This document shows positions 6,341 through 58,467 of a stretch of 64,000 bases of DNA, piece after piece; position 1 is the first letter of the stretch, and each line of letters starts with the position of its first letter. The notes under the pieces were generated by a model that searched no databases, was not told the origin of the DNA, and was given only the letters and a program-made list of their open reading frames with translations. The stretch spans positions 62,001-126,000 of the forward strand of contig MKUO01000004.1 in NCBI GenBank assembly GCA_001897855.1. Reading direction: 5' to 3'. Made by a program: the position numbers and the translations under genes. Origin of the DNA: Bacteroidetes bacterium 43-93 (GTDB lineage Bacteria > Bacteroidota > Bacteroidia > Chitinophagales > Chitinophagaceae).

Positions 6341-6772
6341 ATTGTTTTATTTGTATGCTAAGTTAGTTCTATCTCCCTTCGCGGGCATTATACTTATCAA
6401 AGAGTTTAGTATAAATTTCAAGCCGTACGCGCACAGAAATTTTTGGCAACTTTCGTACTTATTCGTAATTTTATAATTATTAGTTCAGTTCTTTGATATC
6501 ACATGAAAACAGCTTCCACAAAGCATCTCCACCCGTCCATACAAAACAGGTTAGCAAAGGTTAACAATGGTTAGCAAAAGTTAGCAAAGGATAACAAAAG
6601 GGAGTATTATGCCCGTATAAACCGTTCATTTTTTGCCCATTTTAGGTTAGCAACCGGTTAGCAGTGGGTTAGCAAAGGTTAGCAATTGTTAGCAAAATCG
6701 GCGGTCTATGATGCCGGTCATAGTTTATTAGGTCTACTTAGTGCAACTTTGCGGCCTCTTAATATACCGTCA
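6341..6772. other. 432-bp spacer between SDR and QueD
   Basis: Contains the 5' leader of the SDR gene (left) and the two decamer clusters at 6549-6600 and 6645-6698. A 23-codon frame from 6504 runs into the first cluster and is not credible as a gene. No tRNA, riboswitch or conserved small gene was recognised. CAACTTTG at 6744-6751, with TTT 17 bp upstream, is a passable Bacteroidota-type promoter for the gene at 6773. Confidence 0.6.
6549..6698. repeat. Ten phased GGTTAGCAAA-like decamers in two clusters
   Basis: Cluster 1 has five contiguous units at 6549, 6559, 6569, 6579 and 6589 with an exact 10-bp period (GGTTAGCAAA, GGTTAACAAT, GGTTAGCAAA, AGTTAGCAAA, GGATAACAAA). Cluster 2 has five units starting at 6645, 6656, 6667, 6677 and 6687 with a period of 10-11 bp. 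The clusters are about 46 bp apart. One helical turn per unit places all copies on the same face of the DNA, as expected for cooperative protein binding, although replication slippage could also create it. Confidence 0.85.
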
Positions 6773-19117: not shown

Positions 19118-20089
19118 ATGCCAATAAAGCTGCAACGTAATATCGCCCTTCTTTCTGTTGTTTTATTTATTGGTAAACTGGTAGCCTGGTATCTCACCCA
19201 TTCGGTAACCATCCTTACAGATGCGTTAGAAAGTACGGTAAATGTAATTGCAGGCTTTATTGGATTATACAGCATTATACTGGCCGCCCGTCCGCGAGAC
19301 AAAAACCACCCTTATGGCCATGGCAAGGCAGAGTTTGTATCATCAGCAGTAGAAGGTTCTCTGATATTTATAGCCGGGCTGATGATCATCTACGAAGCAG
19401 TAGATAAATTATTGCACCCCGAAGAGCTGCATAAATTAGATGTAGGTATTTATATAACGGTAGCAACAGGTATCATCAATTATTTTGTGGGTGCCTATGC
19501 AGTGAAGCAGGGTAAAAAGAACCGTTCGTTGATCATAGAATCGGCGGGTACCCATCTTAAATCAGATGCCTATTCCACATTTGCTATAGTGGTAGGGTTG
19601 GTGCTCATCATCTTTACCAAGCAGGCATGGCTGGATAGTGTGGTGGCTATGATATTCTCTGTAGTGATTATGGTGACCGGCTACAAAGTAGTAAGGAGAT
19701 CGCTGGCTGGCATTATGGACGAGGCCGACGAGAAAGTACTGGAAGAGGTAATAGCAACCTTAAATAAATATCGCAAACCACAATGGATAGACCTGCACAA
19801 CCTGCGCGTGATACAATACGGGGATGTGCTGCATATAGATACCCATATGACGCTGCCCTGGTACTACACAGTACGTGACGCAGAAAAAGAGATACACGCC
19901 CTGGAAGACCTTGCAAGACAACATTATGGCGATAAAGTAGAACTGTTCATACATATAGATGGTTGTATGCCTTATCAATGCAAGCTGTGTAGTGTTGACC
20001 CCTGCGATGTAAGGCAGGAGCCTCTGAAGCAATTACAAACCTGGACCTTAGAGAACGTGCTGTTAGATAGCAAACACGGGAAGGAGTAA
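19118..20089 (+). CDS. Cation diffusion facilitator (zinc/manganese-type exporter)
   Basis: 323 residues. Six-helix CDF core (about 8-205), with the TM2 metal-site pattern TDALESTVNVIAG, the loop DKNHPYGHGKAEF and TM5 SAGTHLKSDAYS. The cytoplasmic ferredoxin-like domain follows (about 210-295). An unusual C-terminal cluster C-x5-C-x2-C-x4-C (CMPYQCKLCSVDPC) after the domain could bind metal. It exports divalent cations in exchange for protons. The CDF stop codon is one base from the mirrored repeat structure at 20091. Confidence 0.92.
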   Translation: MPIKLQRNIALLSVVLFIGKLVAWYLTHSVTILTDALESTVNVIAGFIGLYSIILAARPRDKNHPYGHGKAEFVSSAVEGSLIFIAGLMIIYEAVDKLLHPEELHKLDVGIYITVATGIINYFVGAYAVKQGKKNRSLIIESAGTHLKSDAYSTFAIVVGLVLIIFTKQAWLDSVVAMIFSVVIMVTGYKVVRRSLAGIMDEADEKVLEEVIATLNKYRKPQWIDLHNLRVIQYGDVLHIDTHMTLPWYYTVRDAEKEIHALEDLARQHYGDKVELFIHIDGCMPYQCKLCSVDPCDVRQEPLKQLQTWTLENVLLDSKHGKE

Positions 20090-20090
20090 C

Positions 20091-20248
20091 GTCCACGACT
20101 GTCCAAGGTGTCCATGGTTTCTTTTTCGTGGACAGTTGGACAGTTTTGCTCCAGTTGCTCCAGCGCTCCATTAATATTAATTGGAGCAGTGGAGCAAGAT
20201 GAGCTGTCCCACGTTGTCCCATATTCTCCCGGTGGGACAGTGGGACAC
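20091..20248. repeat. Left composite array A-B-C (GTCCA, GCTCCA, GTCCCA blocks)
   Basis: Block A: GTCCA at 20091, 20101, 20110 and inverted TGGAC at 20129, 20137. Block B: GCTCCA at 20148, 20157, 20165 and inverted TGGAGC at 20182, 20190. Block C: GTCCCA at 20206, 20216 and inverted TGGGAC at 20233, 20241. Every block is forward copies followed by inverted copies, 8-10 bp apart, so each can fold on itself (for example ACTGTCCAA with TTGGACAGT). Confidence 0.9.
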
Positions 20249-20261
20249 TTAATTAATTAAC

Positions 20262-20570
20262 TCAATCCAATTCAATAATCTCTTTTACAATACCTTCTCC
20301 TATTTGTAATGGGCCATTATTGTATAAAATGAATGGCATTCCTAATGCAATTTTATTTTTGATCAGAGAGAAAAAAGTAATAATAATCTTTGCTTCTGCT
20401 GATTCACCAGCACAGTTCTTTTTCTTTATCTAGGAGTCTGTTGGTAAACATGGTATCTCACCCTTAAGCATCATTGGATAGAAGTCAAGTGAAACAACAA
20501 TATGACTTCTATGTTTCAGTAGTTCATAGGTGATATTATTCCTTGATTTGAATACTACAATATACTTATC
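20262..20570 (-). pseudogene. EF-Tu C-terminal-like gene remnant
   Basis: One minus-strand frame reads as plausible protein from GAT at 20568-20570 to the TGA at 20262-20264, interrupted by one internal TAG. The upper part gives KYIVVFKSRNN and LDFYPMMLKGEIPCLP. The lower part gives CAGESAEAKIIITF, KIALGMPFILYNNG and IGEGIVKEIIELD. The pattern G-M-P-F-x-L-x-x-x-G...I-G-x-G-x-V resembles the end of EF-Tu domain III and small Bacteroidota proteins related to it. No start codon survives (an in-frame TGA is directly upstream). It lies exactly between the two composite arrays. Confidence 0.55.
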
Positions 20571-20583
20571 TCAATTTTTATTA

Positions 20584-20812
20584 CTGTCCCATTTGTCCCA
20601 CTGTCCCACAATAGAAAATATGGGACACCCGGGACACTATGGGACAATATAACTATCAGTAATAATACTAAACTGATATTCCTTCTTTTGCTCCATTGCT
20701 CCATCCGGGAGCATGTGGAGCATTGGAGCAGAGTGGAGCAAACTCATACTGTCCAACTGTCCATGCTGTCCAAGGATAAAATAACCTGGACACTTTGGAC
20801 ACTCGTGGACAA
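20584..20812. repeat. Right composite array C'-B'-A' (mirror order of the left array)
   Basis: Block C': GTCCCA at 20586, 20595, 20603; inverted GGGAC at 20622, 20631, 20641. Block B': GCTCCA at 20690, 20698; inverted GGAGC at 20708, 20717, 20725, 20735. Block A': GTCCA at 20751, 20759, 20768; inverted TGGAC at 20787, 20796, 20806. The order is the reverse of the left array, so the whole 722-bp stretch is a modular inverted repeat. It stops two bases before the rnhA stop codon. Confidence 0.9.
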
Positions 20813-20813
20813 A

Positions 20814-21278
20814 TCAATTTCCGCTTTCATAGCCGGTATCTACCAGCCATTTGCCGCTATCCGCCGCTGCGGTAGCTAACTGGTCGCAACGGTTGTTCAT
20901 CGGGTTATCGGCATGGCCTTTTACCCATACAAATTTTATGCGATGTTTATTATGATACTTTAGGTATTGTTGCCACAGATCTACGTTCTTTTTATCCTTG
21001 AAGCCTTTTTTCACCCAGCCAAATACCCAGCCCTTTTCCACTGAATTGACTACGTATGATGAGTCGCTGTATATAACAACGTCCAGCCCCTCGCGGGTAA
21101 GGCTTTGCAATGCCACCACAACTGCCATTAGTTCCATCCTGTTGTTGGTAGTAAGCCTAAAGCCCTGCGAAAACTCCTTTACAGTCTGTCCCCATTGCAT
21201 CACAATACCATATCCGCCCGGCCCGGGGTTACCTCTTGCTGCACCGTCTGTGTAAATAATTAATTGTTGTTGCGACAT
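20814..21278 (-). CDS. rnhA: Ribonuclease HI
   Basis: 154 residues, the normal length of bacterial RNase HI. Active-site carboxylates D11 (YTDGAARGNPGPGG), E49 (NNRMELMAV), D72 (YSDSSYV) and D132 (NRCDQLA), and the helper His in VKGHADNPMNN, are all present. The basic protrusion is moderate (KKGFKDKKN). It degrades RNA in RNA-DNA hybrids. Its 3' end abuts the right composite array. Divergent from mqnA. Confidence 0.95.
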   Translation of the reverse strand: MSQQQLIIYTDGAARGNPGPGGYGIVMQWGQTVKEFSQGFRLTTNNRMELMAVVVALQSLTREGLDVVIYSDSSYVVNSVEKGWVFGWVKKGFKDKKNVDLWQQYLKYHNKHRIKFVWVKGHADNPMNNRCDQLATAAADSGKWLVDTGYESGN

Positions 21279-49099: not shown

Positions 49100-49597
49100 A
49101 TGGGTAAACAAAAAGTACTGATACTCGATAAGGAAAGAATAGACCAGAAGCTGCAACGTATGGCTTACCAGATATGGGAAAGCAATAGCAATGAAACGGG
49201 TGTAACATTGCTGGGTATAAAAGGCAGCGGACTTGTTGTAGCCAACAATCTTGCTTACTACCTGAAGAAAATAAGCCCGCTGAAAGTACAGGTGCTTCCG
49301 CTGAATATGAATAAAAAGCAGCCAAGGAACGAGATAAAACTGGATAAAGATATTACAGATACATCTGTTGTGCTGGTAGATGATGTGGCTAATTCAGGCA
49401 AGACGCTGTTGTATGCATTACGCCCGGTGCTGGACTATGAAACCCGTAAGATACAGATTGCAGTATTGGTAGACCGTAAGCATAAATCTTTTCCCGTGTC
49501 GCCTGACATCGTTGGCCACTCTGTAGCTACTACACTGCAGGAACATATAGAAGTAGAAACAGATGGGGATGAGGTGACGGCTGCGTATTTGCAATGA
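49100..49597 (+). CDS. PyrR-like phosphoribosyltransferase
   Basis: Start at ATG 49100; the frame is open from 49073 but the upstream extension overlaps the preceding gene. 165 residues. PRPP-binding loop VVLVDDVANSGKTLLYALRP, N-terminal MAYQIWESN and LLGIKGSGLVVANNLAYYL. The size and motifs match PyrR/uracil phosphoribosyltransferase-type enzymes, which make UMP or regulate pyrimidine genes by RNA binding. Bacteroidota typically carry such proteins. Followed by two heptamer arrays. Confidence 0.87.
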   Translation: MGKQKVLILDKERIDQKLQRMAYQIWESNSNETGVTLLGIKGSGLVVANNLAYYLKKISPLKVQVLPLNMNKKQPRNEIKLDKDITDTSVVLVDDVANSGKTLLYALRPVLDYETRKIQIAVLVDRKHKSFPVSPDIVGHSVATTLQEHIEVETDGDEVTAAYLQ

Positions 49598-49599
49598 TG

Positions 49600-49725
49600 C
49601 TAGATGCTGGATATTGGATACTTGATACTTGATACTTGATACTGGATGCTTGATGTTGGACGGACTAACCAACTACCCCAGACTTACGACTCACGACTCA
49701 AAACTCACGACTCAAAACTCACGAC
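49600..49725. repeat. Two tandem heptamer arrays between PRT and isoaspartyl peptidase
   Basis: Array 1 (49600-49662) has nine uninterrupted 7-bp units of the type CTTGATA (CTAGATG, CTGGATA, TTGGATA, three CTTGATA, CTGGATG, CTTGATG, TTGGACG). Array 2 (49684-49725) has six 7-bp units alternating TCACGAC and TCAAAAC. Both start right after the stop codon of the preceding gene and end 12 bp before the next ATG at 49738. They look like the heptamer tandem repeats known from cyanobacteria (STRR). Confidence 0.9.
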
Positions 49726-58413: not shown

Positions 58414-58467
58414 GTCAAAATTCAAATGTATTCAGCGTTTCCGGTAATACTTTCTTTGAATTTTGAC
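58414..58467. promoter_or_regulatory. Inverted repeat between accB and accC
   Basis: GTCAAAATTCAAA (58414-58426) and TTTGAATTTTGAC (58455-58467) are a perfect 13-bp inverted repeat around a 28-nt loop. In the accB to accC direction the hairpin is followed by TTTTTGCTTTTTG, so it could act as an attenuator or processing site. It may also be a copy of a dispersed AT-rich repeat (AGTCAAAAAGCAAAAAGTC). Confidence 0.5.

Follow-up and report, generated by a model that had tools for sequence, protein, structure and literature searches.

Iteron replication systems contain repeated sites that are bound by an initiator or a helicase, and integron gene cassettes are interchangeable single genes that lie beside palindromic attC sites. 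Among the mobilizable elements of Bacteroidales, Tn4555 includes an AAA ATPase and DUF6371 (PMC13183296). A review states that full excision of Tn4555 and NBU1 requires more than integrase and excisionase and that no study had addressed how excised IMEs replicate (PMC5704250). The locus described here lies in a window of 64,000 nucleotides, the whole stretch of DNA that was analysed, and from sequence comparisons it is best read as an orphan nest of three layers, now worn, that a succession of array-bounded cassettes left behind.

Positions 20091–20811 of the window are occupied by six hairpin arrays, ordered A-B-C / C′-B′-A′, which lie between two convergent genes: an open reading frame on the plus strand (19118..20089), which we take to be of the cation-diffusion-facilitator (CDF) type, and one on the minus strand (20814..21278), presumably of the ribonuclease H type (rnhA). 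The outer arrays, A on the left (20091..20142; 3 forward and 2 inverted copies) and A′ on the right (20750..20811; 3 forward and 3 inverted), belong to the TGTCCA class. Arrays B (20147..20196; 3 forward and 2 inverted) and B′ (20689..20740; 2 forward and 3 inverted, exact) occupy the middle positions and are of the TGCTCCA class, and the inner arrays C (20205..20247; 2 forward and 2 inverted, exact) and C′ (20585..20646; 3 forward and 2 inverted, exact) are of the TGTCCCA class. A preliminary description had given the same order of three motif classes, the same copy spacing of 8–10 bp, an interior of about 335 bp between C and C′ and 14 copies on the left, all of which agree with our count (A 3+2, B 3+2, C 2+2, exact copies). 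It had also claimed 18 copies on the right, where 16 are exact (C′ 3+2, B′ 2+3, A′ 3+3) and the remaining two are one-base variants, one in each of the C′ and B′ blocks. The arrays are polar, with an outermost interval of 9–10 bp and inner intervals of 7–9 bp, and left and right arrays mirror each other in this respect. Of 11 pairs measured, 10 show the pattern (they come from the window, contig C21 and genomes G002, G003, G007 and G008); the pair from G013 is nearly symmetric.

A motif-blind detector, which accepts every 6-mer that has two or more forward copies followed by two or more inverted ones at intervals of 7–11 bp, returned six arrays and no more from the 64 kb of the window, all inside 20100–20811; 50 first-order Markov sequences of this length gave none. 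Simulations of Markov order 1, 3 and 5 (40 sequences each) produced 0, 1 and 0 arrays in total; since simulated sequences are almost devoid of arrays, a chance origin was rejected. Simple tandem repeats were also rejected, as a tandem-repeat search gave only two low-score rows in the region. Folded as single-stranded DNA, all six blocks exceed every one of their 200 shuffles in stability (z between −4.2 and −5.5). Across the genome from which the window comes (G000), TGTCCCA hairpin arrays gave five pattern matches, all within the window element, and TGCTCCA arrays were found at two loci, as one mirrored pair in the window and another on contig C21. TGTCCA pairs gave seven matches, six in the window element and one isolated pair elsewhere, against nine for a reversed control pattern, so that only clustering is informative for this motif. 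Dispersed single repeats were rejected because the arrays of this genome are clustered or paired rather than scattered singly.

Other repeats were seen elsewhere in the window. At 6548–6696 there are two blocks, separated by about 50 bp, of about five direct, same-orientation copies each of GGTTAGCAA, 10 bp apart, which form a further site array in helical phase. At 49595–49725 a TGATACT-like and a GACTCAC/GACTCAAA-like tandem repeat, both of heptamer type, lie next to each other, and a 5-mer version of the detector adds one weak array, TCAAA at 58415–58466, over a AAAGTCAA tandem repeat.

Between C and C′ lie the remains of a cargo gene (20265..20525, minus strand) that is homologous to an open frame of 108 aa in the corresponding interior of a second genome of the genus, G008 (L033:2331-2657). 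The window copy contains a stop and a deletion and aligns to this intact frame as two separate stretches, and the central gene is dead, as had been claimed. Pfam held no family for the 108-aa frame, and a search for it in 79 relatives gave four weak matches beyond the G000/G008 pair, at loci without arrays (L300–L303). G008 keeps the order and pairing of the arrays, its element is 75% identical over 885 columns, and an additional 189-aa frame lies beside the left gene. The preliminary description had expected the idea of a composite element to fail if related genomes showed no conserved order or if blocks occurred singly, without pairing, all over the genome; neither was seen, as arrays are paired in the own genome and G008 keeps their order. 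It had also proposed a comparison of orthologous CDF–rnhA spacers, and these are indeed empty in 4 of the 15 genus genomes (G001, G005, G011 and G012), where the 3′ ends of the flanking genes abut or overlap. Orthologues of rnhA are present in all 15; arrays occupy the site in G000 and G008, and the remaining nine have a different rnhA neighbour. TTTCA-class arrays surround a 247-aa frame adjoining rnhA in G010, and an array lies more distantly, within the 1.5-kb flank of rnhA, in G007, G009 and G013. No target-site duplication was seen at the empty CDF–rnhA sites, which are diverged. The 741-bp element as a query found matches in 8 of the 15 genus genomes, its own included.

The arrays of the genus accompany a particular gene, which encodes an ATPase with a C-terminal helix-turn-helix (HTH; Pfam AAA_25 + HTH). 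It is present in 20 copies in 10 of the 15 genus genomes and is rarer beyond: 7 genomes have it among 147 of the family and 14 among 395 of the phylum, both counts including the own genome. A hairpin array follows the stop codon of all 20 genes, with a motif that varies from gene to gene (GCTCC, GCCCA, GCTCA, GTCCA, GTCCC, GTTTC, ATTCC, TATTCAC, GTTCG and GTTCA types). The detector confirms this first array in 19 of the 20, starting 0–18 bp past the ATPase stop, and that of the C12 gene of G000 was seen by eye only. For 18 of the 20 genes there is a further array of the same class downstream; cargo frames located by script between the first two arrays lie on the ATPase strand (16/16), and the second array starts 1–13 bp past the cargo stop in 13 of 16. 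For example, TGCTCCA arrays bracket a DUF2971 gene directly downstream of the ATPase gene on contig C21 of the own genome. Three of nine ATPase genes in other genera of the family have array pairs (L258, L259 and L260). The earlier statement that the locus fits no repeat class is superseded by this genus-wide family of array-flanked genes. All three window classes (GTCCA, GCTCCA and GTCCC(A)) follow ATPase genes in the genus, and the window locus has three mirrored array pairs, each of one class, around its one broken gene. No cognate ATPase gene adjoins the window element; the draft own genome has one for the B class only, on another contig, and none for the A and C classes. As a separate observation, several TGTCCCA hairpins recur at steps of about 114 bp in G010 (L190, contig C1, 2135-2537), with no large frame between them.

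The ATPase resembles replicative proteins. A sequence search of the PDB with a Bacteroidales member gave no match, and a profile search matched T7 gp4 and RadA. The predicted structure has folds resembling DnaB, KaiC and T7 gp4, and the PHROGs matches are to helicase/primase families; no NCBIfam family was named for the protein.

The motif of each array follows the recognition helix of the linked ATPase. Among the 20 genes, which are related to one another, motif distance correlates with recognition-helix distance (Mantel r 0.31, p 0.0004), also when ATPase distance is held (r 0.31, p 0.001); no covariation with motif distance was found for the ATPase domain (r 0.02, p 0.41) or for the rest of the HTH (r 0.07, p 0.22). 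Two residues stand out among the 14 by 6 position pairs examined, with motif registers set by eye and anchored on the leading TG. All 8 genes with Lys383 (C21 numbering) have C at motif position 4, and all 12 with another residue have T there; Arg388 is found in 11 genes, 10 of which have C at motif position 6, and C is found there in none of the nine others. Several of these arrays have few exact copies on one arm, and that of C11 in G014 has none inverted. The own-genome paralogues C21 and C12 are 95% identical by search but differ at 5 of the last 10 residues, and their arrays differ as well (GCTCCA vs GCCCAC). The covarying residues fall in the last helix (351-359) of the modelled HTH in the best genus-member model, which has a mean pLDDT of 81.5 (67–70 for the other four models) and about 90–94 over the last 30 residues. 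A nucleoprotein site was among the options offered at first; the pairing of arrays with ATPase genes and the helix–motif covariation make putative recognition of the arrays by the linked HTH well supported.

We then looked outside the genus, where helix and motif were read by profile alignment. A scan of named genomes for TGTCCCA arrays yielded at least 118 stretches, and among the matches listed 27 frames fit the genus ATPase profile (L135 was left out because it is a genus member). The predicted Lys and Arg occur in all 27, whose helices comprise 13 distinct strings, and a GTCCC/TGTCC array was detected near the stop in 22, although these loci were selected for the TGTCCCA motif and many are near-identical. 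A less biased set comprises 25 non-genus ATPases found by protein alone, with a detected array near the stop in 12 and none in 13. The Lys rule holds in 7 of these 12 and fails in 2 (L261 and L272), that is, in 2 of 9 classifiable cases; of the remainder, two have TGTAACA motifs outside the rule and one has a misaligned helix. Four Proteobacterial loci with arrays of other layout were left out of the comparison (L072, L093, L122 and L147, from Psychrobacter, Legionella and Pseudoduganella); their TGGGACA sites have a different, partly mirrored layout and, by eye, look like a separate iteron system. TGTCCCA arrays were also seen after genes of Desulfovibrio-type, deltaproteobacterial and rhizobial origin (L077, L092, L134, L157 and L180) that end in a similar Lys/Arg HTH and fall below the cut-off used for the genus ATPase profile. 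The helix–motif pairing may extend to such other ATPases.

To characterise what the arrays enclose, 26 array-flanked proteins were scanned with Pfam. In ten of them a defence-type domain exceeds the curated score, namely DUF2971, Fic, TIR (in three, one of which has SEFIR too), SIR2_2 (two), AAA_15 (two) and AIPR. One other has DUF6414, three have GldM or TonB-type domains, and 12 have no domain above the cut-off; given these 12 and the three gliding/TonB-type proteins, the cargo is not only defence. PADLOC, run on 10 proteins, matched all nine cargos, which had been preselected from the ten with defence-type Pfam domains, and gave no match for the ATPase. A further array pair, of TGCTCCA class, lies around three small genes in G002 (L037, contig C2, 581-1914), the last of which is ParE/RelE-type toxin-like by eye. 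Overall, the mirrored arrays, whose short word the linked helicase-like protein probably recognises, enclose single genes in this group of environmental bacteria, and many of these genes are anti-phage-like.

Nests of arrays are not confined to the window. Sites in the genus are referred to by neighbour genes that we take to be recA, iscS and ileS, and arrays lie beside iscS in 3 of the 14 genomes that have this iscS (G003, G007 and G004). At the recA–iscS site, downstream of recA and upstream of iscS, G003 and G007 share a common nest with TTTCAC outside, a TTCCA-type layer and TGTCCC inside. Their left flanks are 91% identical until 2 bp past the innermost array, and their right flanks are 84% identical from 5 bp before the partner innermost array; the genes enclosed are unrelated and lie on opposite strands, that of G003 being GldM-like and that of G007 SIR2-like. 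The outer layers recur in G004, where they enclose different small frames and the inner right array was not detected. This swap could be plain homologous recombination across the shared flanks. Cassette exchange at array edges is moderately supported by the comparison of these sequences. A non-autonomous mobile element had also been suggested for the window locus; a cassette nest has moderate support from the empty sites and cargo differences, and a transposase partner was not noticed in the modules read.

We consider it probable, with moderate confidence, that the arrays are sites read by the ATPase HTH, that array–cargo–array is an exchangeable cassette and that the window holds an orphan nest. 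Under this proposal, each array would be a cluster of sites read by the C-terminal HTH of one specificity class of a DnaB/RecA-like AAA_25 ATPase, and the working unit in the genus would consist of the ATPase gene, an array, a co-oriented cargo gene and the mirrored array, with content switching at the inner array edges. A cassette of a new class may replace the cargo between arrays of an older class, so that layers would build up with A the oldest and C the youngest. The ATPase would work in trans as a helicase loaded at the arrays, the DUF6371/zinc-ribbon protein perhaps serving as its primase, and the bracketed segment would be copied or opened and then recombine with other arrays. The last cargo of the window locus has decayed, and no ATPase gene stands beside it. 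Against the cassette reading, no strand-cutting enzyme was seen in the unit, and neither an excised cassette nor a target-site duplication was found; the lack of A-class and C-class ATPase genes in the draft own genome and of a detected array in 13 of the 25 non-genus ATPases also counts against it.

The main rival to the cassette reading, which we regard as rather unlikely, is a regulatory module, in which the HTH-ATPase would regulate a small defence operon or act as its sensor, with the arrays serving as operators or 3′-end elements. Cargo turnover would then be ordinary homologous recombination between conserved flanks, and nests would be piled-up remnants. In its favour, 19 detected first arrays lie within 0–18 bp of the ATPase stop, second arrays within 1–13 bp of the cargo stop (13/16), cargo is always on the ATPase strand (16/16), and the unit contains no recombinase. 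Against it stand a cargo flanked by two mirrored polar arrays, multi-class nests in mirrored order, orphan array pairs that exist without an ATPase gene, the break of homology at array edges between G003 and G007 and the cargo-free ATPase–array–DUF6371 arrangement in mobile elements.

It is less probable still that the locus is a composite-ended miniature element, moved in trans by a transposase or integrase, with the arrays as its terminal inverted repeats and the ATPase as a passenger or helper. The window element does combine terminal inverted repeats with empty sites in relatives, as a MITE would, and related ATPase–array units occur in elements that carry an integrase. On the other hand, motifs vary with the HTH of the linked ATPase, no transposase or integrase was noticed on reading the modules scanned, and no target-site duplication was seen. 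Least of all do we expect a structured RNA or terminator hairpins, whose sequence would matter through base pairing only, because beyond the hairpin potential evident from the folding nothing favours this option: Rfam gave no family at gathering score for the window locus (two matches up to E 1 lie far below it, and a known RNA family was rejected on this ground), the motif letters covary with the recognition helix, and the arms are unequal in copy number and spacing.

If the cassette reading is right, the genus has a route for exchanging defence genes at fixed chromosomal sites, and a protein–DNA code predicts which arrays pair with which protein; the helix–motif code could then be used to locate such cassettes, and new defence genes within them, by motif. 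As cassettes would stack in layers of different specificities, a nest would record the classes that passed through its site. More tentatively, and with less confidence than in the reading of the locus itself, we suggest that these are a new class of gene cassette in Bacteroidota, each a single gene, in many cases an anti-phage effector, bounded by hairpin arrays whose word of 6–7 bp is read by the recognition helix of a linked protein like a replicative helicase, with content exchanged at the array edges without a classical recombinase and cassettes stacked as nests. This raises the question whether genes can be moved by a helicase and iteron-like arrays when no transposase or integrase takes part. 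Open-licence PMC full text, searched with narrow terms, gave no description of defence cassettes bounded by arrays or of their nests, which lends weak support to their absence from print.

Parts of the system are nonetheless familiar. The unit of ATPase, array and DUF6371 is already part of known mobile elements: in Bacteroidales elements the ATPase and the array are followed by a DUF6371/Zn_ribbon_16 gene, the same order was seen by eye in four family genes, and one such ATPase–DUF6371 pair lies on a circular B. fragilis record of 10,057 bp with integrase, excisionase and mobilization genes. The window element resembles MITEs in its terminal inverted repeats, its empty and filled orthologous sites and the lack of an enzyme of its own, but its ends are ordered, nested, multi-class arrays, and neither a transposase partner in the modules read nor a target-site duplication was found. 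Compared by eye with integron cassettes, those of the genus have arrays on both sides and motif classes tied to the ATPase HTH, and no integrase was noticed. Like iterons, the arrays consist of short repeats about one helical turn apart beside the gene of a DNA-binding ATPase, with site and protein covarying; in contrast to iterons, they are inverted and hairpin-forming and stand as mirrored pairs around swapped genes, origin activity being putative. The replication-like region of mobilizable elements of the Tn4555 kind shares with the genus a homologous AAA_25 + HTH gene and has a TGTCCCA array at its 3′ end and DUF6371/Zn_ribbon_16 next to it. It has a single array between the ATPase and DUF6371 genes, whereas the genus of the window, with no integrase noticed in its modules, has many array classes, mirrored array pairs around cargo, and nests.
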